From contig CAMCIX010000004.1 of assembly GCA_945875045.1 (NCBI GenBank), forward strand, positions 1 through 16,481: DNA of 16,481 nucleotides, in the 5' to 3' direction. Made by a program: the position numbers and the translations under genes. Each line of letters starts with the position of its first letter. Position 1 is the stretch's first letter. Origin of the DNA: an uncultured Clostridia bacterium (GTDB taxonomy: Bacteria > Bacillota > Clostridia > Oscillospirales > Acutalibacteraceae). The notes beneath the pieces were generated by a model. The model made no database searches. It was not told where the DNA came from and worked only from the letters and a program-made list of their open reading frames with translations. Shown here piece after piece: positions 3,877 to 15,839 of this stretch.

Positions 3877-3963
3877 ATTCTACAATAACTCAGCACTCAG
3901 CACCAACATATAACAGTAATTTTTTTGCCGATGATGAAGGATATAAGAAACGAGGAAACGGAT

Positions 3964-4173
3964 ATGACAGTAAGCTATAAAAAACTTTGGAAGCTGCTCA
4001 TTGACAAGGATATGAAAAAGAAAGACCTTGAAAAGGCGGCGGGGATCAGCAACTATGTCATTTCAAAGATGAACAAGGGTGAAAACATCACTGTGGATAT
4101 CGTAGGCAAAATTTGCAGTGCATTAAACTGTACTCCCAATGACATTATGGAGTTCAGTGATGACAGCATATGA
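3964..4173 (+). CDS. Small Cro/C1-type (XRE) transcriptional regulator
   Basis: 69 residues, almost all one helix-turn-helix domain: KKLWKLLIDKDMKKKDLEKA, then AGISNYVISKMNKGENIT as the recognition helix, then VGKICSALNCTPNDIME. This is the single-domain Cro/C1 family seen beside many regulated loci in Firmicutes. An ATG further upstream at 3925 is in frame, but GAGG at 3952-3955 is 8 bases from ATG 3964, so I choose that start. The next gene begins 14 bases after its stop and is probably co-transcribed. It likely acts as repressor of its own promoter or of the surface operon downstream; the target is an inference from proximity. Confidence 0.85.
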   Translation: MTVSYKKLWKLLIDKDMKKKDLEKAAGISNYVISKMNKGENITVDIVGKICSALNCTPNDIMEFSDDSI

Positions 4174-4187
4174 AGGGGATTTTTTCA

Positions 4188-5642
4188 ATGAGCAAAGTTT
4201 TAACAAAAATCACGCAAAGCGCCTATTTCAAAAAGAAGGATAGAATCCCTTACATAAATGCTGTTGTTCTGATGGGGTTGTTCACCTTTCTGTTTTTAGG
4301 TGCGGAATATCTATATGTAGATGTGCTTTCCCGCATGGTATCAGAGGATAAAACCGTACTGGCACAGAATTATGCACTGGGAGTAAGTGCGGCAGGTTTT
4401 TTGCTGTATCCGTTATTGAACCGATTTTGTAAAAACCGTCTCAAAACTGTATGCTTTGCTGTTTTCGGCCTTTCATCCGTTTTGTGCATAGCCTTTATCT
4501 GTATGGGTACTGCTTATTCAGCGACATTCACAGCGGGGCTTGTTTTGTTTCTTCTTCTCGGCTTGTTCGGCAGTGCGGTTTTTTATCTTTCCATGCGTAT
4601 GATGAAAACAGACAGGTACTTGGCAAGGACTGTAGGAATTTCCTACGCGCTGGGTATCCTGCTCCAGTTTGCAAACAACAATCTTGTTCGCTCGGAGGTT
4701 GTGGGGGCAATCATTTTATCGGTGTTTTTAATGCTGCTTGTTTGGATGCTGATAAAGAACGACCGCATTTATTGTGAAAACGGCGGTCATAAAGTTGAAG
4801 CTTCGCCGGATGAAGACAAGAGAGACAGTAATACCAAAGAAACCGCAAAAGGAGCAACAGTCGGTATTCTTATGATTCTGCTTGTCGTGCTGATGACCTG
4901 TATTTTCAGCACGCTTGACAATGCGGTGACTCTTGTCCACGCAGGCGGAACAGTTGACATAGGACAGTGGCCGAGAATCCTGCTTGCTTTAAGCGGTTTG
5001 GCGGCGGGATTTGTATTTGACATAAAGAACCGAAAATATATGGGACTTGTCATGTACTGCGTGATGGTGCTGTCCACGATATGTATTGTCGTGCTGAAAT
5101 TTGGCGGTTCATTTTTGGTGGGCTTAATTGTTTTCTACCTGTCAGCGGGCTTTTTTGCGGTATTCTTTACCTCCGGCTTTATGGAGCTTTCCCGCCATAT
5201 GAGAATATCTGAGCTGTGGGCAGGCATGGGGCGTGCGGTGAATAATATTACAGCCGCTCTCATTGCCAACCCTGTTTTAGCCCTGCTGTCCTATGACAGC
5301 AGTATTGCCGTCATTGTTCTGGTGCTGTTCTTATTTGTGGCTGTCAGCACTGTGGCGGTTGTATATACCTTTCAAAAGAAAGCATTTGCGGAACAGCTCA
5401 TTACAGATGCAACCAACACCGTCAGCGAGAAAGAAAAGGTGCAAAAATTCATGGAATTGTTTTCTTTTACGGAAAGAGAAGCCGAGGTGTTCGGCTGCCT
5501 TGTCAATACGGAGGACAGCGTTCAGGCGATTGCCGAAAATCTGTATGTCTCCAGACGGACTTTGGAACGGTATATTTCCGCTATCTATGAAAAAACCGGT
5601 GTCAAATCCCGTGTCGGGCTACTCAATCTTTACAATAAATAA
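4188..5642 (+). CDS. 12-TM MFS-like membrane protein fused to LuxR/GerE DNA-binding domain
   Basis: 484 residues. Twelve hydrophobic segments can be counted (for example VVLMGLFTFLFLGAEYLYV, FTAGLVLFLLLGLFG, VGILMILLVVLMTCIF and IAVIVLVLFLFVAVSTVAVV), with a charged loop between TM6 and TM7, a 6+6 layout as in major facilitator proteins. The last ~60 residues form a LuxR-type HTH: FTEREAEVFGCL, VQAIAENLYVSRRTLERYISAIYEKTGV. The protein is therefore a membrane-tethered regulator, presumably sensing or transporting a ligand with the membrane part and binding DNA with the cytoplasmic tail. Start is ATG 4188 with AAGGGG 9 bases upstream; an ATG at 4170 overlaps the previous stop but lacks a ribosome site. 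It follows the XRE gene in one unit and ends in a terminator, next to the surface operon it may control. Confidence 0.85.
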   Translation: MSKVLTKITQSAYFKKKDRIPYINAVVLMGLFTFLFLGAEYLYVDVLSRMVSEDKTVLAQNYALGVSAAGFLLYPLLNRFCKNRLKTVCFAVFGLSSVLCIAFICMGTAYSATFTAGLVLFLLLGLFGSAVFYLSMRMMKTDRYLARTVGISYALGILLQFANNNLVRSEVVGAIILSVFLMLLVWMLIKNDRIYCENGGHKVEASPDEDKRDSNTKETAKGATVGILMILLVVLMTCIFSTLDNAVTLVHAGGTVDIGQWPRILLALSGLAAGFVFDIKNRKYMGLVMYCVMVLSTICIVVLKFGGSFLVGLIVFYLSAGFFAVFFTSGFMELSRHMRISELWAGMGRAVNNITAALIANPVLALLSYDSSIAVIVLVLFLFVAVSTVAVVYTFQKKAFAEQLITDATNTVSEKEKVQKFMELFSFTEREAEVFGCLVNTEDSVQAIAENLYVSRRTLERYISAIYEKTGVKSRVGLLNLYNK

Positions 5643-5666
5643 TTTTTGATCTCGGAATCTGCTCTG

Positions 5667-5700
5667 CCGCCTTCCCTAAAACGGAAGGCGGATTTTTTAT
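5667..5700 (+). terminator. Intrinsic terminator after MFS-LuxR gene
   Basis: CCGCCTTCC (5667-5675) and GGAAGGCGG (5683-5691) form a perfect 9-bp stem with a 7-base loop, followed by ATTTTTTAT. Confidence 0.9.
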
Positions 5701-5746
5701 ACCATTTTCAGAGTGAAAAACAGCTTTTTGCCCTGATTTTTAAGAA

Positions 5747-5792
5747 TGGCGGAGTTCCGCCACCCCATTTTCGGCAGATTGGCGGACTTCCC
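5747..5792. promoter_or_regulatory. Inverted repeat plus a second partial copy, candidate operator
   Basis: TGGCGGAGTTCCGCCA (5747-5762) is a perfect inverted repeat with a 2-base centre. A related sequence, TTGGCGGACTTCCC, recurs with its GGCGGA at 5781, exactly 33 bp after the first (three helical turns). Both lie in the 190-base gap between the regulator terminator and the surface operon. Paired, phased sites suggest a dimeric regulator, perhaps the LuxR-type protein upstream. No well-spaced promoter was found here, although TATAAT (5819-5824) and TATACT (5856-5861) are present. Confidence 0.4.
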
Positions 5793-5888
5793 TTATATAC
5801 AAAAAAGCCCTCTGCCAATATAATTATAAGCAAAGGCAGTTGATATATAAGCCGATATACTCAGCCGTTAAGAAGGAGAGAAACGCAT

Positions 5889-8396
5889 ATGAAATACAAA
5901 AATCATAAAAAGCATCGGGCGCGGCTGCTGACCGCTGTCTTTGCGGCGGTTATGCTTCTGTCGCTCCTGCCGATAACCGCGTCGGCAAGAGAGAGCGGGA
6001 ATACCGTACTGACCGAGGATTATTACAGGCTTACCGACGGCAACGCCGCCAAAGTGCCGGGGCTTAATTATCGTTGCTCAGGTCACGGCGACAAAATGAT
6101 TGAATACTATGCGGAGGTTGAGGACGACGGGCGTTACACCGTCCCCGGTATTATTGAAAAGGTCGGGAACAAACTACGTTATGTATATACATATTATTGC
6201 CCTACCTGCTACTCCACATGGAAAGAAGGCGCCAAATGGAATGGTGAGGGCGAAGTATATGACGATGGCTCGTCCACGGGAAAGAGCCTTAAAGATTATA
6301 TGGAGTTTGTAGCAAACAACACGGTTGCAGGTATGGCATCATATGGTTACTACTATCCGCCGAAGGACGATTCGGATAATGCGCCGCAAAGGAATTATAC
6401 TGTCGGCACTTCAACTGTTACAGAACAGCCGGATCTGTTTCAGGTTGACGAAAATGGGTGTCTAATCGGAACTTCCGGAAAGGCGCTGACGACTGTTTCC
6501 GGAAAGAAACCTGATGAAAAAGATCCCCTTGCACACTGGGATATGCCGGGCGCTTTTGCGTTTTATCAATTCTTCTATACCGGTATGTCCGAAATGATAA
6601 ACAAGCCTACAAGCGCTGATGATCCGGCGTGGGATACTGTCAGAGATATGACCCGTATCTACTATATGAAACGGCAGCAGGAGGGGCAGCTTGCCGGATC
6701 GAGGGTGAACTATTCGTCCCAATGGTATAGCTACGATTATTCTATGCTCGGCGAATGGGTTGTGACCGATCTTATGGCGGAATACAAGACAGGCGAGATT
6801 TGTGGCTATGTTTCCTATGTGGGTCAGAAAACCGAAATTGCCGTTCCCGAAACGGTAACTATACCATTGTACGGAAAGGTAAAAATAATCGGTGTAGATA
6901 TTGAGGATCACAACCTCAAAAAGGTGTATATCAATGATAACGTTACCTGTATACGCCGTTTAAGCTCGGTAAACCTTGAAGAAATTTCGGGCTGTAAAAG
7001 CCTTGAATACATAGAAAAATACGCGTTTCAAAATGATGTTTCGCTGAAAAGCATACCCGAAATGCCAAAGCTTGATTGGATCGCCATGGGCGCCTTTGAG
7101 GGCTGTATATCATTGCGCGATGTTAAGCTACCGGACAATATGACATTCATCGACTTCACGGCGTTCGGTTGGTATGACACCGTTCTCGGAAATTACGATA
7201 TTGGTATGACGGATCAGAGCTGGGAGGATTTTCAGTATCTGAGCGACCTCTCCGACAACGACAAAATCCTCGGACTGACCCTGTATTCCAAAAAAGGCAG
7301 CACGACCTATAAGCTGTTGGACACCCTGATCAATAAAAATGATGCGCTGACTCCCGCGCTTGACGATAGCGGCAAGCCGTATTTTAAATCCTACGGTGAC
7401 GCGGTCTCCATGATGAGCGGCGAGGTGAAAGAATTTACCTCTCATTGGAATCTCAAAAGCAGCGGTGATTATAAGGGAAACCTTGCCTCCACCGACAAGG
7501 ATGTGGACGATTCCACCGGCGGCAGGCTCGGCGAATACGCCGAGGGCGAGCCGTCGTGGAGCCCGAAGAAGGTTCTTGAGCAAGGTGCACTTACCGCAAG
7601 TCTCCTGCTGTTCTTCGGCATAACCGCCGGCGTTGCGCATTACACCGGCACAATGCCGGATAAGAAAAAGCCTGTTCCGGAAATTCCGAAAACCTATTGG
7701 GGAATGACCGCCGAGCAGTGGTCTAAAATGGGCAGTGACAGTATCGACCTGCTTTCCAACTCGTTTGAGAAAATGGGGGGCGTCGGCAAGGTGATGAAGG
7801 GCGCAGTCGCCGCAGGCAAGGCATTCCAGAAGTATCTGGATGTATATAACGAGACCGGGAATGCCGATGAAGCGTGGAACAAAGCCTTTGTCAGCTCGCT
7901 GTCTGTGGGAACGGCGTTCGGCATGGCTACCGACAGTGTTCCCGCCGTCGGAATATGGGATGCCGTTTCCGGTCTGGCAATGGGCACCTCTACGGCGGCG
8001 GACGCAGTCAGCATGGGCGGCAATGCCGAGCATCTGGCGGATTTCTTTATGGATTATATGTACTCCCGCAATAAAGAGCTGCATGTGAATACAAGCTTTG
8101 ATCCAAGCGTTGTATATACCCGTGAGGAGCTGACGCAGCGGATCGCCGACGGCGCCTACGGCGAGAATATCAAGAACTTTTCCGATGCCGTGGATCTGGT
8201 CAGCAGCTGGCAAAGCATCAAGGATACGACGGTCGGCGTCTTCGGCAAAGACGGCTTCGGATGGGGCATTTTCGGCAATATGGGTGATACGGCAAATGAG
8301 ATGATTAAGGGCAGCCGCGTGGCTGAGCAATATGTCGAATGGTTCAATTCAGCTGTGAAAGACTTCTACACGACCGGAACGAAGGGAGGAATGTAA
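5889..8396 (+). CDS. Secreted/membrane protein A: CxxH-CxxC cluster, BspA-like LRR, TM and Gly/Ala-rich C-terminal domain
   Basis: 835 residues, first gene of a seven-gene operon, with AAGGAG upstream of the ATG. A basic N-terminus and hydrophobic core end in ITASA-RE, a signal peptide cut near residue 33. Cys63-x2-His66 (RCSGHG) and Cys104-x2-Cys107 (YCPTC) may form a metal site. Residues ~300-430 look like degenerate leucine-rich repeats of the BspA/LRR_5 type (SLEYIEKYAFQ, LKSIPEMPKLDWIAMGAFEG, SLRDVKLPDNM), usually used for binding at the surface. A linker leads to a single TM near 565-586 (ALTASLLLFFGITAGVAHYTG), followed by KKK. The last ~240 residues contain small-residue helices (VGKVMKGAVAAGKAFQKYL, VGIWDAVSGLAMGTSTAADA). 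If both hydrophobic segments act as predicted, the C-terminal domain would be cytoplasmic. No whole-length family is recognised. Confidence 0.85.
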   Translation: MKYKNHKKHRARLLTAVFAAVMLLSLLPITASARESGNTVLTEDYYRLTDGNAAKVPGLNYRCSGHGDKMIEYYAEVEDDGRYTVPGIIEKVGNKLRYVYTYYCPTCYSTWKEGAKWNGEGEVYDDGSSTGKSLKDYMEFVANNTVAGMASYGYYYPPKDDSDNAPQRNYTVGTSTVTEQPDLFQVDENGCLIGTSGKALTTVSGKKPDEKDPLAHWDMPGAFAFYQFFYTGMSEMINKPTSADDPAWDTVRDMTRIYYMKRQQEGQLAGSRVNYSSQWYSYDYSMLGEWVVTDLMAEYKTGEICGYVSYVGQKTEIAVPETVTIPLYGKVKIIGVDIEDHNLKKVYINDNVTCIRRLSSVNLEEISGCKSLEYIEKYAFQNDVSLKSIPEMPKLDWIAMGAFEGCISLRDVKLPDNMTFIDFTAFGWYDTVLGNYDIGMTDQSWEDFQYLSDLSDNDKILGLTLYSKKGSTTYKLLDTLINKNDALTPALDDSGKPYFKSYGDAVSMMSGEVKEFTSHWNLKSSGDYKGNLASTDKDVDDSTGGRLGEYAEGEPSWSPKKVLEQGALTASLLLFFGITAGVAHYTGTMPDKKKPVPEIPKTYWGMTAEQWSKMGSDSIDLLSNSFEKMGGVGKVMKGAVAAGKAFQKYLDVYNETGNADEAWNKAFVSSLSVGTAFGMATDSVPAVGIWDAVSGLAMGTSTAADAVSMGGNAEHLADFFMDYMYSRNKELHVNTSFDPSVVYTREELTQRIADGAYGENIKNFSDAVDLVSSWQSIKDTTVGVFGKDGFGWGIFGNMGDTANEMIKGSRVAEQYVEWFNSAVKDFYTTGTKGGM

Positions 8397-8397
8397 G

Positions 8398-9171
8398 ATG
8401 CAGGTAAGAAAACTGTCCTATTTGGCTATAGACCGTCTCGGCGAGCTGCTCGGACTGACGGCGGACGCTCTTTCTCCGATTCACGACCTGCAGTCCGCCA
8501 TTCTGGGATTGAAGAAGGCTATGCCTTCCGAACTGAAAGAGGGGCTGGACGCAAATCTGCTTGCGCAGGGCTTGCTTACCGCGGAAGCGGAAGGTTTGCA
8601 GCCGACCGCCTCGATGAACCTCTTTATATCGGCACTGTATTGTCCGAAGAAATGCTATCGGGTTCGAATGCAGGAAAAGGACGGTACGGGCGACACCTAT
8701 CTTCTGCTCATGGACGGTGCATGGCTCCGCATAGACGCTTTCCGCGGTGAGCTGACGGTTTCCGGACCGTTTGATCTTGCTGCAGCGGAGCTGTATTTGC
8801 GGGCGTGCGTTGAAACGGCTCTGAGGGAACCGGATATTCAGCTGCAGATCGAGCGAAGAGAAGAAGGTTTTGTTCACGGTGCGGTGATTGAACTTGACGG
8901 TAACAGATACTCCTTTGCCGGTACGGTTTTTACGCCTACCGACAGCTTTCCGCAGATGTTCGTTCATGTGTTTGCGGCAACCGATGAAAACCGACAGTGG
9001 ATCGCCGATATGCTCATAGGCAAGCGTGAATTTGTCCTCCCCGAAAGCGAGCAGGAAGAAGCGCCCGCCGAAAAACGTTCTTACAAAAAAGCGTTAAAGG
9101 GTTTTCTGATAGCTCTTGTCGTGAATGTGTGCGCCGCAGTGATTATTGCCGTGCTGAAAGCGGTACTTTGA
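8398..9171 (+). CDS. Protein B: unrecognised protein with C-terminal membrane anchor
   Basis: 257 residues, one base after the stop of protein A, with GGAGG 7 bases before the ATG, so the two are translated from one message. There is no signal peptide. Residues 1-210 look like a mixed alpha/beta domain (helical start LSYLAIDRLGELLGL, then strands such as YLLLMDGAWLRIDAF and FVHGAVIELDGNRYSFAG). An acidic-to-basic linker (ESEQEEAPAEKRSYKK) leads to a hydrophobic tail at 236-255 (FLIALVVNVCAAVIIAVLK). This is a tail-anchored layout with the domain most likely in the cytoplasm. The pattern recalls, loosely, EspG-like chaperones of type VII secretion, but I see no motif that establishes it. It could be a cytoplasmic partner for the C-terminal domain of protein A. 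Confidence 0.8.
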   Translation: MQVRKLSYLAIDRLGELLGLTADALSPIHDLQSAILGLKKAMPSELKEGLDANLLAQGLLTAEAEGLQPTASMNLFISALYCPKKCYRVRMQEKDGTGDTYLLLMDGAWLRIDAFRGELTVSGPFDLAAAELYLRACVETALREPDIQLQIERREEGFVHGAVIELDGNRYSFAGTVFTPTDSFPQMFVHVFAATDENRQWIADMLIGKREFVLPESEQEEAPAEKRSYKKALKGFLIALVVNVCAAVIIAVLKAVL

Positions 9172-9181
9172 GGTGGTGCGT

Positions 9182-10636
9182 ATGAAACTGAAAAACATAC
9201 TTTCCAATGCGTTTAACGCAATAATCAGCTCATACGAGGGCAAACGGTTCTGGCCGAGCCTCATACTGAGGCTTGTAATGGCGCTTGCCTCGGCGGTCAT
9301 CACCGCCGTGTTTGCCAACACGCTGTTTTCAAAAAACAATATTGTCAATCAGATCTTTGCCGCTCTGTTCTTCTATTTCCTGATGGTGTCGGTCAGTAAG
9401 CTGATCACCGAAATCAAGCGCGGCGGCTTCGCGGGGCGGCTGAAAAGCACCGTTTGCAATATGGTACGCCTGAAACCTCCGGCACTGTGGTTCTTTATTG
9501 CCGCAATCGTTCTGTCGCTGTTTTTGCCGTATGCCTTTGTGCTGTCACTGTCGCTGCTGCTGTTCTGCTCGGCGGTATCGGAGAATAACTCCCTGCTGCT
9601 CGGCGTAAAGAACGCCGTGACAAAGGGCGAAAATCCCGAGAAAAACGGCAAAGGACTTGCGGCATTTACAAGCGGACTGATCGCCTGCGGGCTGATTGTC
9701 TGCATACTGACGAATCTCGGCGTGCCGACGCTCTACGGCGTAATCGACGGCAGCAATCCGAAGCCCGGTACGGCGCAGACCGAACCGGCGGGAAAAGACG
9801 ACGGTTCACAAATTCCGTCGGATACGGATAAAACGCCCGACAGCACGACAAAGCCGAACGGCGGAGATACTAAGGAAAACGATGATTCATCTATTGAGGA
9901 AACAGCAAAGCAGCTCACGGATAAGCTGATCGAGTATGCCGGCAAGGACAAAAAGGCGTTTGCAAAGCTGTTCCGCAACACGGACGACGCGGTCATCGAT
10001 CAGTATTACAACACCTCCTATAATAAATTCCGTGAGTACGGCAAGAGCCTGATCGCCATTGCGGCACAGGACGGCGATTCCGTTTGGTTCACGGCGCTGT
10101 ATTATCAGATACCTGCAAACTATCCGGCAGAAAAAGAAAAATCTGTCTATCTGTCAACGATCATGACGCACGCGGATGACGGCTGGAAATTGGAATGGAA
10201 CGACGCTGTGCTTTCTCGGCTGCAGTCGAAATATGATAATGCCGGATTTACTCCCGAGGGGCTTTGGGCAAAGGAAAGCGGCTATGCGTGGGCAAAATTC
10301 TTTATCCCGTTTGATTCGTACAACACGGCAATATTCTATGAGAATGCCGTCATGTGCAAGGTTACGGAAATGTATATGGACGAAAACGACAACCTGAATC
10401 TTATGGTATATGCGTCAAACGGCACGGACAAGGATGTTAAGCTCACCGGAATGGATATTTCGGTATCAGACGGCGACAGAATGCTGTTTGAAAAGCACTT
10501 TGATGTCGAGATTGAGCTTAATAAGGACGGTGTGTCCCTATGCGCACTGAAGCTGTTCTCACCGCAAGACATCGACTTTACGACATGGAGCAGCCCGAAG
10601 ATCACCGACTTTACATTCAGCTATGAAAATCAATAA
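9182..10636 (+). CDS. Protein C: polytopic membrane protein with NTF2-like and SLAP-like ectodomain
   Basis: 484 residues. GTG codons at 9173 and 9176 are part of the AGGTGG ribosome site, so ATG 9182 is the start. TM segments lie near 24-48, 54-75, 101-129 (perhaps two) and 160-187. After them comes a low-complexity Pro/Ser/Thr/Asp linker (about 190-238), then an ectodomain. Residues ~240-345 (LTDKLIEYAGKDKKAFAKLF, WFTALYYQIPA, DDGWKLEWND) look NTF2-like; residues ~395-484 (LNLMVYASNGTDKDVKLTGM, FSPQDIDFTTWSSPKITDF) resemble the SLAP domain of Firmicutes surface proteins. Both domain calls are by eye. With the linker and ectodomain outside and basic loops inside, this could be the membrane hub of the operon, holding an external module close to the wall. 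It sits 10 bases after B and 13 before D. Confidence 0.8.
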   Translation: MKLKNILSNAFNAIISSYEGKRFWPSLILRLVMALASAVITAVFANTLFSKNNIVNQIFAALFFYFLMVSVSKLITEIKRGGFAGRLKSTVCNMVRLKPPALWFFIAAIVLSLFLPYAFVLSLSLLLFCSAVSENNSLLLGVKNAVTKGENPEKNGKGLAAFTSGLIACGLIVCILTNLGVPTLYGVIDGSNPKPGTAQTEPAGKDDGSQIPSDTDKTPDSTTKPNGGDTKENDDSSIEETAKQLTDKLIEYAGKDKKAFAKLFRNTDDAVIDQYYNTSYNKFREYGKSLIAIAAQDGDSVWFTALYYQIPANYPAEKEKSVYLSTIMTHADDGWKLEWNDAVLSRLQSKYDNAGFTPEGLWAKESGYAWAKFFIPFDSYNTAIFYENAVMCKVTEMYMDENDNLNLMVYASNGTDKDVKLTGMDISVSDGDRMLFEKHFDVEIELNKDGVSLCALKLFSPQDIDFTTWSSPKITDFTFSYENQ

Positions 10637-10649
10637 GGGGGAGCAGCCG

Positions 10650-11801
10650 ATGCGCCGCAAATACTTTTATTCAAGCAAAAGGCTTAACTATCATTTTCTG
10701 CACCGATTATCAGCGATTTTTCTGCTTATAAGCATGACGCTGTGCGGCTGTGCGAAAGAGCCCGCCGGGGAACCGTCGGAAGCCGTCAGCACCGAGCCGG
10801 AGACCTCGCAGACCGAAACAACGCAGGCGGATCCGATAAATCTTGAGCAGGTGCTCCTAAAAGAACGCGGCATACCGTACGATCAATCGGATTACAAAAA
10901 GTTCCTCGGCGGAGAAAACATCATTCACGAATACGCCGAATTCGACTGTAATCTGGATCACGGCTACAGTAAAACCGTCAACGATCTCGTGGTGGCTGAC
11001 GGAAAGCTGTATCAGGCAAATTTCAACTCCGTTTTGGCAAACGGCAAGAACATACAGGAGGTCGGCACCCTGCCCGGAAAAAATATCCGATATTGGCGTC
11101 TGACCTATGACGGTGAAATGGGAGAGATCTACTTAAATGACGGCTCCGGCTATAAGGTCAGCAGCACGCCGTTTACGGCCTCGCCGATGGATAAGGCGCA
11201 GTTTCCGCTGTTCCGAAAGGTTTACCGCTATGCTTCCGACGGAAAGACGCTGGAGGATCATACGGCAGAATACTTAAATGCCGATAAGGTCTACTCCGGC
11301 GATCCGATGATCGCCGTTGCCGGCGGTAAAGTTAGCCTGCTTTTTTCGGGCAAATATCTTGATAAGGGTACGACCGGCTGGAATTGGTATCAGGACATGG
11401 GTTGGCGGGAGTACATTGCCTTTGAATTGGAGCTGTCTGAGCTTGCCGGCGAAGCACCGATCCGACTGTTTAATCGGAACATTCTGATGACCAATTGTGC
11501 CTTTTATGAAATCGTGTATGCCTCGGAGCCTTTGGACGACAGCGACACAAAAGCGCAGCTTGCGCCGGACGGCTCGGTGTCTCCCTATTATCCCGCAGCG
11601 CAGCATCTCAACTGCAATGTAAAGCTAAGAAAGCTTGAGCTGCTCACTGCTTTTTACGGCGATGTCCGCAACATCAGCACAAGCCATGTGATCACCGAGG
11701 ACTATACGATGCTCCCCATTGCCGAGGTGCTTACAGACGGATACGGTGCGTATCAAAAATACGATCCCTGCCGTTTCTATTGGGACTATAATCAGGATTA
11801 A
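10650..11801 (+). CDS. Protein D: lipoprotein of unknown function
   Basis: 383 residues. An in-frame ATG at 10623 overlaps the end of protein C, but AGGGGGAG lies 8 bases before ATG 10650, which I take as the start. After a basic N-terminus and hydrophobic stretch (LSAIFLLISMT), the lipobox LCGC places the lipidated cysteine at residue 34. A Glu/Thr/Ser-rich spacer (about residues 40-60) separates the anchor from the mature domain. The domain has many aromatic residues and beta-type segments (LVVADGKLYQANF, IRYWRLTYDGEMGEIYLNDG, GKVSLLFSGKYLD), but I recognise no family. It should sit on the outer face of the membrane, beside the ectodomain of protein C. The gene is 13 bases after C and 21 before E, both in the same operon. 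Confidence 0.8.
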   Translation: MRRKYFYSSKRLNYHFLHRLSAIFLLISMTLCGCAKEPAGEPSEAVSTEPETSQTETTQADPINLEQVLLKERGIPYDQSDYKKFLGGENIIHEYAEFDCNLDHGYSKTVNDLVVADGKLYQANFNSVLANGKNIQEVGTLPGKNIRYWRLTYDGEMGEIYLNDGSGYKVSSTPFTASPMDKAQFPLFRKVYRYASDGKTLEDHTAEYLNADKVYSGDPMIAVAGGKVSLLFSGKYLDKGTTGWNWYQDMGWREYIAFELELSELAGEAPIRLFNRNILMTNCAFYEIVYASEPLDDSDTKAQLAPDGSVSPYYPAAQHLNCNVKLRKLELLTAFYGDVRNISTSHVITEDYTMLPIAEVLTDGYGAYQKYDPCRFYWDYNQD

Positions 11802-11822
11802 GGAAAAAAGGAGAGAAACACG

Positions 11823-12947
11823 ATGAATGTAAAACGAATCACGGCGCTTGCGCTGGCCTTGGTCATGACCTTGCTTCTTGCCGCCTGCGGCAGCAAAACC
11901 GTTGTGAACGATGACGGCACAAAAACCGAACAAACAGAACGCGGAGTCAAGGTGACGCAAACGGCGGCAAAAGCCGTGCAGACCGAAAAATACGAAACCG
12001 CCGATTTCAGCATTACCATCCCGAAGGGCTGGACGGTAACGACCGGCGGAACGAATATCTACCACAGTATTCGGGTAAGCGACCCGAACGAACCGCTCAA
12101 TCAGATGTTTGTGCTGCTCAAAGCCGATGTGTTGTTGCACAGTCAGGCAGGTAAAGATGCATGGCAGCAGAACTACAATATGGGCAATACGCAGGCGGCG
12201 CTTTTTGCTAAGGCCGCTGTGCTTGATAACCCGTCTACAGAGGGCTTTTTCAAAATATTCTCACAGTATACTGCATTTGCATCGGAGGTGGAGCCTGCTT
12301 ATTCGGGATATGCCTTCCCCCGGTTTGATAATTTTACGGTAACCGACCGCTATCCCTCTGCCAGCCCGATGAAGTCCTCCGCTCTCGGCGACGAGCAGCT
12401 TCGCGCGACATTCACGGATAACGGCAAAGAGGGCGAGGGTCTATTTGCCGCCAGTGTGGTGGACTTTGGCAGCTCTGCCATCTCCAACGGCAATGTGGTA
12501 GGCTATCAGCTCCAGGCTGTGGACGGCGGCTACTATATGGCTTACAACATCATTGCTGTTACCGCCGCAAAGGACACCTTTATCGAGTGGGAAGGTGTGC
12601 TGACCGATTGCTTCAAAACCCTGCAGTATTCCGACAGCTTTGTCAGTACCACCAATCAGGCAAGCAATGAAAAGGTTGCCCTTGCCAAACAGATCAGCCA
12701 GAACTTCAATGCGACCATGGACGGCTTTATGTCCTCCTGGGAGAGCCGCAACAGAAGTCAGGACATTATGAGCCAGAAGCAGAGCGACGCCACCCTCGGC
12801 TACGAGCGTGTATACGATACCGAAACCGGTGAAATTTACAAGGCTACGAACGGTTTTACCGATGTGTACGACGGCAAGCGGTACAAGGCAGTGACCGACG
12901 ACAATATGTATGCCGAACCTATCAGCGGGTATATTGAAAAGCAATAA
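11823..12947 (+). CDS. Protein E: lipoprotein with PsbP/DUF1795-like opening
   Basis: 374 residues, AAGGAG upstream of the ATG. The signal peptide ends in the lipobox LAAC, with lipidated Cys22. A Thr/Lys-rich spacer follows, then FSITIPKGWTVTTGG, which resembles the first strand and turn of PsbP or DUF1795-type domains found in many Firmicutes lipoproteins; this is a short similarity and not proof. The central part (SIRVSDPNEPLNQMFVLLKA, YYMAYNIIAVTAAKDTFIEW) is beta-rich. The C-terminal part contains polar, probably helical stretches (ASNEKVALAKQISQNFNATM) and ends with a repeated Tyr pattern (YERVYDTETGEIY, DVYDGKRYKAVTDDN). Likely exported and membrane-anchored outside the cell, with D as a probable partner. 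It is followed after 55 bases by the small gene F. Confidence 0.82.
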   Translation: MNVKRITALALALVMTLLLAACGSKTVVNDDGTKTEQTERGVKVTQTAAKAVQTEKYETADFSITIPKGWTVTTGGTNIYHSIRVSDPNEPLNQMFVLLKADVLLHSQAGKDAWQQNYNMGNTQAALFAKAAVLDNPSTEGFFKIFSQYTAFASEVEPAYSGYAFPRFDNFTVTDRYPSASPMKSSALGDEQLRATFTDNGKEGEGLFAASVVDFGSSAISNGNVVGYQLQAVDGGYYMAYNIIAVTAAKDTFIEWEGVLTDCFKTLQYSDSFVSTTNQASNEKVALAKQISQNFNATMDGFMSSWESRNRSQDIMSQKQSDATLGYERVYDTETGEIYKATNGFTDVYDGKRYKAVTDDNMYAEPISGYIEKQ

Positions 12948-13002
12948 CACCATAACAAAAACGGTTTACCGTAGAATCGTGATGAAAAGGAGGTGCCGGA
13001 CG

Positions 13003-13353
13003 GTGAACAGGCAACTTTCCGCTTTGCCGGACAGTAAAACAACAAGAATAATACTGCCGTATAACCGGCAATATGTGTTCTTCGCCGTTTATGAAGTGCT
13101 GGATAAAAACGGTGCCGAATATGAAAAAACAGACGCATCCACCATTTTAGCAGAGATGTCGGTATACGGTAATTTAAGCCGGTTTTCCGTCTCCGTAAAT
13201 GAACAGGAAACGGGAACGGAACTGACCGTAACGATGGTTCATCCCTGCGAAGGACTCTCCGCCTCCGGCGTTCAGAGATCCGTAACCGCTGTCGCCGACA
13301 GCATCTCACAGCACCTGGAAAACGAGCTTGTGATAAACAAGTTGAAGGCTTAA
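13003..13353 (+). CDS. Protein F: small soluble protein of unknown function
   Basis: 116 residues. The upstream frame is open to an ATG at 12910 and contains an ATG at 12982, but both lie before or within the ribosome site. AAGGAGG (12987-12993) is 9 bases before GTG 13003, so the start is GTG. There is no signal peptide or membrane segment, which makes it the only member of the operon expected to be free in the cytoplasm. The sequence alternates strands and helices: TRIILPYNRQYVFFAVYEVL, ATG-free central strands (LSRFSVSVNE, TELTVTMVHPCE) and a final helix (VQRSVTAVADSISQHLENEL), suggesting a compact alpha/beta domain. No family is recognised. It might be a chaperone or regulator for the exported partners. 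Confidence 0.75.
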   Translation: MNRQLSALPDSKTTRIILPYNRQYVFFAVYEVLDKNGAEYEKTDASTILAEMSVYGNLSRFSVSVNEQETGTELTVTMVHPCEGLSASGVQRSVTAVADSISQHLENELVINKLKA

Positions 13354-13380
13354 TTTCAGATCATAATCGAAAGCCTGAAG

Positions 13381-13400
13381 CGCATTCTGCTCCGAATGCG
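13381..13400 (+). repeat. Small hairpin between genes F and G
   Basis: CGCATTC (13381-13387) and GAATGCG (13394-13400) form a 7-bp perfect stem with a 6-base loop. No T-run follows, so it is more likely an RNA processing or stability element than a terminator. It could tune the level of protein G relative to the upstream genes. Confidence 0.45.
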
Positions 13401-13431
13401 GACAAAAACTTTAAGAAAGGATTTTTAAATT

Positions 13432-15123
13432 ATGAAAGAACGCACACTTAAAACAAAATTGCTGACAGTCCTGCTGACTTTGTGCTTGGCACTGTCCATT
13501 GTGCCGATTTCGGCGTTTGCGGAATCGGGAGCGTATGCTGTTAAATTCTACCCCGGAGATTATGGAACCATGAAAAACAACCAGATCCCGTTTGTGTATT
13601 ATGGCATTGACGATGATGTTAACAAGCCCTACTACTATAAGCTGAATGTATCCGAGACAGAAACTCTCAGCTTTGCCGGCAGTATCATCGATACTTTACT
13701 TCCGAATTCGGGATATGAGTTCGCCTACTGGACAGCCGATGCTGCCGTATACCAGGTCGGCAGTAATGCTGCCATTTCTGCCGGCACCGCTCTTTCCTCT
13801 GAGCAACTACAGAACACAATCACCGTGAAAAGTGATGTGACATTCACGGCCCATTTTAAGCAGATCTCTGAATATCCTGAGGTTTCAGAAATCAGCACCG
13901 TTGAAATCATCGGCGCGACCCTTTCCTACAACCCCGGCGATACCCCACAGGCCACGGCTGCCGTAGCCGCCGCCGATCAGGGCAAGTACCGGATTGCAGA
14001 TGAATACTGGCAGGAGTTAAATGAAAACGATGTGGCCGTGGCTGTATGGCATTCCGACGACGGGGCATACAGCACCTTGCCGACCATTACTGCGTTTGAA
14101 AGCGAAAAAAAATATGTATATTCCGTTCTGCTGATGCCGGAAAGGGAATATGACTTCGGCAGAGAAGTCGCCGCTACGGTGAACGGGAACGCAGTGACAG
14201 CGGTTCCCGCCACAGATGGATACCTGAGTCTTCCCAATGTTAAAACGATTATACCGACCGAGTCGTACAACCCGACGGTAATTGATCTGATTGAGATAAA
14301 TGATGTCACTGTCAGCTTTAAAGACGGCGATAAGCCGAAATTCACGGGTTCGGTGCCTGATAATGCAGGCTACGCGTTCAGATGCGAGTGGTGGAGCCTC
14401 GACGGCGATACAGGCATCGTTTCCACGGAGCCGGAATGGGGAGGCGATATTTATAAAAACAAAATCACCGCTTTTAAAGCCGGAAAGACCTATCATTACG
14501 GTGTATATGTGACTGCCTATACCGCTGACATCTCCCCCGATGCCAAGCTAAAGATCAACGGCCGGGAAGTGAACTACACTCGTATAGGTGATGACGGCGA
14601 TACGCAGAGCTTTTGGGTCGAAACCAATCTCACCATGACACCAACAGCAGCAGGAGAAACGCCCAATTACAAAATTATCGAGGGAGCAAACGGCACTTGG
14701 ACGCAGAACAGAGACGGAACGCTGACCTTCCGTGCAAACGGTGATTTCAGCAAATTCACAGGCGTTAAGATTGATGGAACGCTGATTGATCCGAAGAATT
14801 ATACGGCGAAATCCGGCTCAACGATTATCACGTTGAAAGCGGATTACCTCAAAACGCTTTCTGTCGGCACACATAAGCTTACGGTTGTCTATACCGACGG
14901 CGAGTGCAGCACGAATTTTGAGGTTAAACAGGCAGCTTCGGAGCAGACAAAGCCAACCGAACGAGATAAATCCGATACAACAACGCCAACCGGTGGCAAG
15001 GATACAACAAGCCCTCAGACCGGAGATAACAGCAATATGCTTCTGTGGGTAGCTCTGCTGTTCGTAAGCGGAGCAGGCGTACTCGGAACAACAGTTTACA
15101 GCAAGAAAAAAAGAGTAAGATAA
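13432..15123 (+). CDS. Protein G: wall-anchored repeat protein (SPQTG sorting signal)
   Basis: 563 residues, AAAGGA upstream of the ATG. A signal peptide ends in SAFA-ES near residue 30. Residues 34-143 resemble an InlB-type/Listeria-Bacteroides repeat (VKFYPGDYGTM, GYEFAYWTAD, KSDVTFTAHFK). Then come two related ~120-residue beta domains (about 150-276 and 282-404), each with a V-x-I-x2-V/A-T-V/L start, a W-containing middle and an ITAF-x-(7-8)-Y-x-YxV strand. Residues 411-499 resemble X2-type modules of clostridial surface proteins (GTWTQNRDGTLTF, FTGVKIDGTLID, SGSTIITLKADYL). The C-terminus is a full sorting signal: SPQTG at 527-531, a hydrophobic stretch at 536-555 and a KKKRVR tail. A sortase encoded outside this window must attach it. 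It is the last gene of the operon. Confidence 0.88.
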   Translation: MKERTLKTKLLTVLLTLCLALSIVPISAFAESGAYAVKFYPGDYGTMKNNQIPFVYYGIDDDVNKPYYYKLNVSETETLSFAGSIIDTLLPNSGYEFAYWTADAAVYQVGSNAAISAGTALSSEQLQNTITVKSDVTFTAHFKQISEYPEVSEISTVEIIGATLSYNPGDTPQATAAVAAADQGKYRIADEYWQELNENDVAVAVWHSDDGAYSTLPTITAFESEKKYVYSVLLMPEREYDFGREVAATVNGNAVTAVPATDGYLSLPNVKTIIPTESYNPTVIDLIEINDVTVSFKDGDKPKFTGSVPDNAGYAFRCEWWSLDGDTGIVSTEPEWGGDIYKNKITAFKAGKTYHYGVYVTAYTADISPDAKLKINGREVNYTRIGDDGDTQSFWVETNLTMTPTAAGETPNYKIIEGANGTWTQNRDGTLTFRANGDFSKFTGVKIDGTLIDPKNYTAKSGSTIITLKADYLKTLSVGTHKLTVVYTDGECSTNFEVKQAASEQTKPTERDKSDTTTPTGGKDTTSPQTGDNSNMLLWVALLFVSGAGVLGTTVYSKKKRVR

Positions 15124-15155: not shown

Positions 15156-15200
15156 AAGCCCTCCTGTTCGATGCATACCGGACAGGAGGGCTTGCTTATT
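15156..15200 (+). terminator. Terminator of the surface operon
   Basis: AAGCCCTCCTGT (15156-15167) and ACAGGAGGGCTT (15182-15193) form a perfect 12-bp stem with a 14-base loop, followed by GCTTATTTAAT. It ends the seven-gene operon, and an A-run on its left side may let it also stop the convergent minus-strand genes. Confidence 0.85.
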
Positions 15201-15270: not shown

Positions 15271-15651
15271 TTAAATTGTGTTAATCAAATTGCTGTTTAT
15301 GATTTCTGAGGCTCTGCTGCGAAGGTTGTTCATTTGCCTTACCCATTCCATTTGGTTTTCCGCTTTAAGCCGTTCTGTTACACCTTCGCGCTCTGCCATT
15401 TGCTTTACGAGACGAGAAAACATATCTTCTGCCTGTTTGTCAAGATCTGAGAGGTAACCGTTCAGTTTACCGCTTGTCAGCAGATTATGATAAAAGACCT
15501 TGCGATTTTGCTTGATATACCGCAAGTGTCGTTGTCCCCATAAGCCGACAGGCTGTTGTTCTACTTCAGGTAATTTTAAGCAAGGTAGATAGTAGTCGTC
15601 TTGAAGTTCATACCAAAGCCCGTTTCTTTCGTCAAAAATGTACTTTTCCAT
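15271..15651 (-). CDS. tnpV: TnpV-like transposon protein
   Basis: 126 residues. The sequence begins MEKYIFDERNGLWYELQDDY and continues YLPCLKLPEVEQQPVGLWGQ, RHLRYIKQNR, SGKLNGYLSDLDKQAEDMF and QMAEREGVTERLKAENQMEW, the pattern I know from TnpV proteins of Tn4451-type mobilizable transposons and related clostridial elements. The biochemical role of TnpV is not established. Start is ATG 15651 with a GGGGG-type site 8 bases upstream; the GTG at 15657 overlaps the preceding stop and is less likely. It follows the small gene at 15654-15839 with only 2 bases between, so the two are coupled. It marks this side as mobile-element backbone, convergent with the cargo operon. Confidence 0.88.
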   Translation of the reverse strand: MEKYIFDERNGLWYELQDDYYLPCLKLPEVEQQPVGLWGQRHLRYIKQNRKVFYHNLLTSGKLNGYLSDLDKQAEDMFSRLVKQMAEREGVTERLKAENQMEWVRQMNNLRSRASEIINSNLINTI

Positions 15652-15653
15652 AA

Positions 15654-15839
15654 TCACGCCCCCTTGAAAAATACTTTGAATTTCTTTTGTTTTGCACTAA
15701 TGATTTTCAGCAGAACCTCATCCACCGCGTCGGTGTACTTTCCATCAGCAATAAGCTTGTTTCTTAATTGGTTCAGGCTCTCAATTATAAGCCGATGTTC
15801 CTGATCGTTTAGCACAAGATAGTATTTTTGCTTCATCAT
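15654..15839 (-). CDS. Small protein coupled to tnpV
   Basis: 61 residues from ATG 15839, or 60 from ATG 15836; GAGGAG lies 5 and 8 bases upstream respectively, so the exact start is open. The frame also extends to a TTG at 15863, which lies ahead of the ribosome site. The sequence is KQKYYLVLNDQEHRLIIESL followed by NQLRNKLIADGKYTDAVDEV and a basic end (ISAKQKKFKVF), a small strand-plus-helices protein. Similar short proteins are commonly seen next to tnpV in clostridial elements, as I recall, without an assigned function. It is transcribed with tnpV. Confidence 0.75.
   Translation of the reverse strand: MMKQKYYLVLNDQEHRLIIESLNQLRNKLIADGKYTDAVDEVLLKIISAKQKKFKVFFKGA

Follow-up and report, generated by a model that had tools for sequence, protein, structure and literature searches.

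Proteins with the EspG fold are described, in the parts of the literature at hand, as targeting chaperones of type VII secretion (PMC10653861, PMC11217815, PMC10765036), EspG capping the helical tip of the PE/PPE proteins (PMC11217815). The EspG-like proteins of Gram-positive bacteria include EsaE of the Staphylococcus aureus type VII secretion system (T7SS) variant T7SSb, TscG and TshG of the variants T7SSc and T7SSh, and YfjC of Bacillus subtilis; which proteins, according to the same partial sources, are tied to a T7SS and encoded in the gene cluster of that system or of its client (PMC10653861, PMC11217815, PMC10765036). We here consider a further EspG-like Gram-positive protein, likened to those by description. 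The stretch of DNA analyzed (16,481 nucleotides; hereafter, the window) is contig C4 (CAMCIX010000004.1) of the assembly GCA_945875045.1 (G000; 1.71 Mb, 285 contigs, 85% complete) from an uncultured Clostridia bacterium of the Acutalibacteraceae, and carries seven genes, A to G, at 5889–15123; the genomes compared with it were drafts, metagenome-assembled genomes among them. With a probability of roughly 0.42, we propose that these genes are an inducible surface operon of two separable modules, in which the membrane-tethered product of gene B would act as an adaptor for the cytosolic tail of its neighbor A.

B (8398–9171, + strand) comprises an EspG-fold domain (approximately residues 1–215) and a C-terminal transmembrane (TM) anchor (approximately residues 229–256). 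Its AlphaFold2 model, with a predicted local distance difference test (pLDDT) of 87, matches EspG1, EspG3, and EspG5 in both Foldseek and VIA—at 8–14% identity in the Foldseek rows—so that we assign the predicted EspG fold with high confidence. No EspG family model was found for 22 B sequences in Pfam (E ≤ 1), for B itself in NCBIfam, or for six B homologues (E ≤ 0.1), and the search for solved-structure sequence relatives gave chance-level rows only; other EspG-fold proteins are likewise reported, in the excerpts available, as being without sequence similarity. The C-terminal hydrophobic segment of B (residues 235–253, mean hydropathy 2.87), located in a region that is kept in the homologues, indicates by hydropathy a membrane anchor, unlike the soluble cytosolic chaperones of the EspG/EsaE type. 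Among the 78 homologues aligned—the eight of the total of 86 that fell outside 240–266 amino acids being left out—34 kept 94–98% of residues 216–257, versus 41% of the EspG part.

A (835 amino acids; 5889–8396, + strand) consists of a signal peptide, a Cys-containing ectodomain, a BspA-type leucine-rich repeat (LRR) region (LRR_5 at 39.5 bits versus the Pfam cut-off of 27.7), one TM helix, and a helical tail that falls into several classes; the regions outside the LRR, including the TM segment and the tail, matched no Pfam family. The membrane segment is moderately hydrophobic, the mean of the window's 19-mer being 1.58, below the limit of 1.6 in our scan; a segment above 1.2, followed within 15 residues by three or more K/R, was present in all 120 of the A homologues listed. 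Such a type I layout—signal peptide, one hydrophobic segment, and K/R thereafter—would place the tail in the cytosol, alongside the domain of B.

A has at least 396 homologous clusters (E ≤ 0.001), and we compared the window's protein with the best 120 of 396, as ranked by similarity to the window. Across these 121 proteins the LRR part formed one cluster, the front ectodomains (residues 60–325) seven, and the tails three, with 106, 14, and 1 members—the single tail of the third cluster being 64% like that of the window—while a window-type front was combined with the second (class II) tail in 14 of the 121. As judged from sequence comparison, A is thus a constant LRR flanked by two separately varying parts, the front and the tail. 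In a second A-B-C locus (L033), residues 76–425 of A are 92–94% identical to those of the window in protein and 55–65% at third codon positions, the DNA being 80% identical over 5934–7644; which conservation of protein over diverged third positions favors purifying selection over a recent copying event. The tail (residues 601–835) is 36–39% identical between these two loci, residues 1–195 of B 38–42%, and C 42–78% by segment. In the four A-B-C loci found—the window and three more (L032, L033, L034) from a scan of genome contigs—the class of the tail was the class of B, which agreement represents three independent combinations. Class II B may also occur with a C 89–91% identical to that of the window, judging from an equal-sized longest contig of the two in P0179/P0238 (59,777 bases); a second such pairing, P0162/P0220, with C at the same identity, is weak, the longest contig there having 2,335 bases.

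With respect to the layout, all seven open reading frames (ORFs) are read on the + strand, as the original prediction had stated, and the gaps calculated with starts chosen by ribosome-binding site (RBS) likewise agree with the 1–78 bases announced: 1 for A-B, 1 for B-C, 13 for C-D, 21 for D-E, 55 for E-F, and 78 for F-G. The single strong terminator was recovered at the operon end (15156–15193, + strand; minimum free energy −30 kcal/mol, z −6.58, none of 200 shuffles equally good), the interior of that strand containing only weak hairpins of 5–6 pairs; over the window as a whole, the 24 terminators found versus 18.9 ± 4.3 expected are not significant. Upstream, a terminator at 5667–5691 (+ strand; 9-pair stem plus T run) stands between the preceding regulator gene and the operon; A is preceded by a promoter-like site, TATACA-17-TATAAT (5796–5824, + strand), called by consensus matches only (10 of 12). 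The unit runs from promoter to terminator and encodes envelope proteins: a crude hydropathy scan gave an N-terminal signal-like segment in A, one C-terminal TM segment in B, four TM segments in C, segments at the N-terminus of D and of E, none in F, and segments at both termini of G. The Pfam, NCBIfam, PHROGs, and PADLOC libraries yielded no named system having this combination, again as predicted. At E ≤ 0.1 the PADLOC models had no matches to A–G and only weak matches of the helix-turn-helix (HTH) type to the regulator gene, and we rejected the notion that A–G is a known anti-phage defense system on that absence of a match. PHROGs gave weak matches only, and no RNA families were found in the window.

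The claim that A–G works as one assembly was not supported by the comparison of loci, in that, among those read, all seven genes are present in only the window; taken as a whole set, the genes occur independently, which was the very outcome that the original prediction had named as refuting it. L033 (UBA5905) has A-B-C without D–G, next to a divergent HTH regulator, as does L034 (UBA4717) within its 4.7-kb contig, which begins inside A and where D is not next to C, the gene at the contig end after C being what we take to be secD. L032 (UBA7217) contains the HTH and LuxR genes followed by A, B, C, and D, set between chromosomal genes; its A is without the middle (residues 243–641 unmatched), and the DNA match in D ends at window position 11334 (approximately residue 237 when the ORF is numbered from 10623), after which a stop occurs. 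With this internal deletion and short D, the module copy in L032:8759-13089 looks decayed, although B and C are still open. In searches over genome sets that overlap one another, C was absent, apart from the centre genomes, from 393 genomes of the order (two weak short matches), from 390 of the class (one 22% ectodomain match), and from 197, 196, and 372 relatives of the L033, L032, and L034 genomes, respectively.

For E, a search through 295 genomes of the order gave matches at E ≤ 1e-10 in 12 other than G000, and we read 13 E loci in these 12 (L047, L048, L061–L071), each of at most 20 kb and several ended by the contig. In seven of these (L047, L061–L066), the LuxR regulator and F are encoded close to E, without A-B-C, four of the seven (L047, L061, L063, L064) also containing D and the HTH gene; the seven represent three arrangements, L047/L061/L063/L064, L065/L066, and L062. 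None of the 13 contained B or C, and A was limited to LRR- or signal-level matches (L062, L068, L071). In the other six, E is 25–35% identical and no LuxR homologue is present, an HTH match, together with a wall protein resembling G, being retained in L068. The companions of E include a GH3 lipoprotein (L061), MscS channels (L063, L065), SLH plus CAP proteins (L062, L065), and wall-anchored proteins, so that the E-F core looks like a general wall or envelope module, which elsewhere accompanies other wall proteins.

We hold the division into modules and their link to one type of regulator with good confidence. Upstream of the operon lie a gene for an HTH_26 (Cro/C1-type) DNA-binding protein (3925–4173, + strand; Pfam 70 versus 22 bits) and the LuxR gene (4170–5642, + strand), which encodes a membrane regulator with an N-terminal multi-TM part—nine hydrophobic segments by the crude scan, with a weak MFS_1 match below cut-off—and a C-terminal LuxR (GerE) HTH (33.9 versus 23.5 bits). 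LuxR homologues at 48–72% are present in L032, L047, and L061–L066, and an HTH_26 homologue occupies the same place in L032, L047, L061, L063, and L064. The regulator-cargo gap contains a putative operator, TGGCGG-AGTT-CCGCCA (5747–5762, + strand), with a half site, TGGCGG, after it; the operator was found once in the window versus 0.02 expected at up to one mismatch, and TGGCGGNNNNCCGCCA occurs only once in the whole G000 assembly. That palindrome, together with the HTH/LuxR pair, precedes the cargo in the window, in L032, and in four E loci, so that the motif is in 6 of 71 loci, one of the six (L002) being the window itself. The gap reads TGGCGGAGTTCCGCCA in the window and in L032, and L047, L061, L063, and L064 have two such palindromes; the alignment among the palindrome loci runs on through the promoter, whose context at 5796–5824 aligns with L047/L061/L063/L064. 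The genomic sites lying in that gap are 1 of 1 in G000 and G430 and 2 of 2 in G118 and G161. The LuxR regulator may therefore bind the palindrome and induce the operon.

Three observations adjoin this regulatory region. The HTH_26 protein scored 68.6 bits with a VanU regulator model, far under the cut-off of 150; other repeats, recognized by eye as GGGTTTACA... and ACAAATGTA..., occupy the same gap in L062:9314-9815 and after the LuxR gene in L065, and are perhaps operators of another specificity; and the divergent HTH regulator of L033:5476-7398 starts, again by eye, much like a gene beside E in L070:7828-9564, which type may be a second kind of regulator serving both modules.

From the gene layout, the modules, the predicted fold of B, the allelic classes, and the shared palindrome, all computed directly, we infer a topology, a binding of A's tail by B, and the formation of a complex, as follows. 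The membrane LuxR regulator would sense a signal, bind TGGCGGNNNNCCGCCA by the operon promoter, and turn A–G on. A, exported by Sec, would expose its LRR-bearing ectodomain with the helical tail remaining in the cytosol, where B, held to the membrane by its C-terminal helix, would cap or stabilize that tail as EspG does with PE/PPE; by analogy with that pair, we hold the binding of A's tail by B with moderate confidence. A, B, and C would then form a membrane complex, with C supplying the multi-TM part and a second ectodomain, while D–G, from the E-F envelope module, would contribute lipoproteins, a small factor in the cytosol, and a wall protein that binds sugars. We can assign to such a complex only with low confidence a purpose in surface recognition, display, or signaling. 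A narrower proposal, which we advance tentatively, is that A-B-C would be a surface display or recognition system employing a type VII chaperone fold without the type VII ATPase, in which a membrane-tethered EspG-fold B is allele-paired with the cytosolic tail of a Sec-exported LRR protein whose ectodomain and tail modules recombine, under a membrane LuxR switch of its own.

Several results weigh against the adaptor scheme. The predicted structure of A (pLDDT 36.8) shows no more than helices and was kept out of the fold search. Unlike in the comparison with L033, the tail belongs mostly to one class (106 of 121, mean identity 0.82–0.93), although, the list having been ranked by similarity to the window, other tail classes are under-sampled; residues 101–225 of A, for their part, have a mean identity to the window of only 0.36–0.48 among the 120 best-listed homologues, and this pattern of tail and ectodomain slightly lowers our confidence in the proposed scheme. 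The agreement of tail and B classes, with only three independent combinations, could arise from linkage alone, and pairing of the 86 B with the best 120 A by equal-sized longest contig gave none (controls 0–3). As to the switch, only 2 of the 7 palindrome sites in G049 and 2 of the 5 in G230 lie in the gap, leaving 5 and 3 copies elsewhere; a reversed control pattern had 8 sites in G000 and 0–4 in the other five genomes, so that split palindromes of such composition are not rare in G000; and the LuxR loci L062, L065, and L066 do not have the palindrome.

The fold of B also lends itself to a more conventional interpretation, namely that A-B-C is a satellite of a T7SS, with B an ordinary chaperone of the EspG/EsaE type and A or its tail a substrate for an EssC-type ATPase, and the available text of one paper does describe EspG-like chaperones in the new Bacillota variants T7SSc and T7SSh/i (PMC11217815). 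Full EssC proteins (TIGR03928 over cut-off) are indeed present in G049 and G118, of the same order, though without a C match; but in none of the four A-B-C genomes, which are drafts (G000 85% complete) and were not searched for WXG100, did TIGR03928 exceed its cut-off, even if the ATPases of newer T7SS variants might score poorly with that model. The sole matches there, of approximately 200 residues, belonged to FtsK/SpoIIIE proteins, in which the alpha, motor, and gamma domains are all present. Along with the signal peptide and TM-like segment of A and the membrane anchor of B, this result makes a satellite unlikely in our estimate. We are about as little inclined to regard A as a receptor whose ectodomain binds a ligand and relays the event via the tail to B and C, with LuxR setting the amount only: the type I layout, the front ectodomain varying on a constant LRR as a ligand-binding part might, and the second ectodomain in C would all suit that function, but in Pfam none of A, B, and C showed an output domain, whether enzymatic or DNA-binding, and no further partner of B is known here.

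We judge it quite unlikely that A and B are a pair resembling a polymorphic toxin and its immunity protein, the tail being a diversifying effector and B its membrane-bound cognate protector, which pair would mark kin or attack neighbors. Discrete tail classes, the 14 of 121 proteins in which a window-type front carries a class II tail, the rapid divergence of the gene directly after A, and the agreement of tail and B classes in all three combinations would be expected of such a pair; yet no toxin family was found in the tails of the window, L033, L034, P0042, or P0072, PADLOC had no match to A–G, the charge flanks place the tail in the producer's own cytosol in 120 of 120 homologues, and B has the EspG fold. 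We know of no immunity protein with that fold. Last, A–G might be an accidental cluster on one transcript without a common task, inasmuch as A-B-C is found without E-F, and E-F without A-B-C, and the window alone among the loci read contains all seven; we find this improbable, considering that both modules stand behind the same regulator type and palindrome and that the gaps are tight. C is also directly followed by D in L032, but the DNA of the two loci is nearly identical at C-D, which sharing is thus not independent. Returning to the operon proposed here, it is a real surface operon, probably horizontally spread and regulated, and composed of two modules.

The remaining genes contribute as follows. 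C (487 amino acids; 9173–10636, + strand) has by hydropathy four TM segments and a C-terminal ectodomain, and no solved-structure sequence relatives were found for it; the ectodomain resembles a stand-alone lipoprotein in L041:1381-2427 and L049:9593-10639 (21–22% identity, E 7.3e-14). D (10650–11801, + strand; RBS AAGGGGGAG) and E (11823–12947, + strand) are lipoproteins whose lipoboxes were read by eye. D, with no assigned family and no Pfam match at E 0.001, has a 32% homologue in L047, L061, L063, and L064; E has a weak PsbP_2 match below cut-off (E 0.0074, 16.7 versus 27 bits) and only chance-level rows as solved-structure relatives. F (116 amino acids; 13003–13353, + strand) is a small cytoplasmic protein whose best start by RBS is the GTG at 13003 after AAGGAGGTG, rather than the first ATG of the mechanical ORF at 12910; no Pfam family was found for it at E 0.001, and homologues lie close to E in L047 and L061–L066. 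In L063:12111-13373 and L065:8082-9312 F homologues stand directly upstream of MscS-type channel genes, a hint of an osmotic or envelope-stress link. G (13432–15123, + strand) is a CBM_X2 (34.7 versus 28.9 bits) and SPQTG sortase-anchored wall protein, with the signal peptide, LPXTG-like motif, TM segment, and charged tail of that pattern; its LPXTG domain passes in NCBIfam (19.2 versus 15.9 bits) and falls below cut-off as Pfam Gram_pos_anchor (16.3 versus 20). An LPXTG protein from a plasmid of Roseburia sp. 831b (NZ_CP135163.1) shares 49.7% identity with residues 400–561 of G.

Horizontal acquisition of the window operon is probable, since a search of 59 other relatives, 36 belonging to the same genus, gave no full-length A, and LRR-level matches in 25 of the 59. 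The DNA of the window and L032 is 99% identical over 4890–6612 and 96% over 7870–11334, whereas identity in 100-base steps is only 64–86% across the HTH gene and the first part of the LuxR gene; which jump in identity at 4411–4890 indicates an exchange border within the LuxR gene, whose sensor half seems to have been swapped. The earlier view of the operon as cargo of a mobile element is plausible and in part upheld: a NikA-like mobilization accessory protein (481–774, − strand; PF21983, 59 versus 27 bits) and a TnpV transposon-encoded protein (15271–15657, − strand; PF14198, 160.1 versus 27 bits) flank it and fit a mobile setting, but the 16.5-kb window, a contig too short to draw the element, showed neither a relaxase nor an integrase. 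Upstream of the operon is also a DUF6076 protein (1453–2586; 158.2 versus 23.5 bits). In viral contigs, neither A, B, and C nor the LuxR and DUF6076 genes had any relatives; A was absent from phage records and had one LRR-level match only in plasmid records, where the LuxR gene and E were without matches. In L047:16940-18187, approximately 2 kb upstream of the HTH-LuxR pair, an integrase-like gene was recognized by eye, and the E-F module may thus also be element-borne.

The unexpected feature of the locus is a membrane-anchored protein of predicted EspG fold apart from any detected type VII machine. If true, that fold would have a role outside type VII secretion, separable from the secretion machine, and A and B would offer a simple two-protein system for how EspG-like domains recognize helical clients; the A-B-C family is common in sequence collections (at least 396 clusters for A and 580 for C at E ≤ 0.001), and the operon can be tested directly by way of its regulator and palindrome. 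Compared with the EspG of the mycobacterial ESX systems (T7SSa), B differs in having a C-terminal membrane anchor and an identity of 8–14% in the Foldseek rows, in being encoded next to an exported LRR protein rather than PE/PPE, and in belonging to genomes where no EssC-type ATPase was found. A shares the LRR_5 region with the BspA-type LRR surface proteins, its other parts, TM segment, and tail being without a Pfam family. Finally, the window's regulator resembles the 10-12-TM LuxR activators DadR, HcdR, and CadR of Eggerthella lenta, which, as described in the available part of the source, likewise join a multi-TM N-terminus to a LuxR HTH and adjoin the genes that they control, just as the window's regulator adjoins its would-be targets (PMC9734109); by that description, the window-type loci differ from theirs in being located in Bacillota and in having as targets surface proteins instead of metabolic enzymes.
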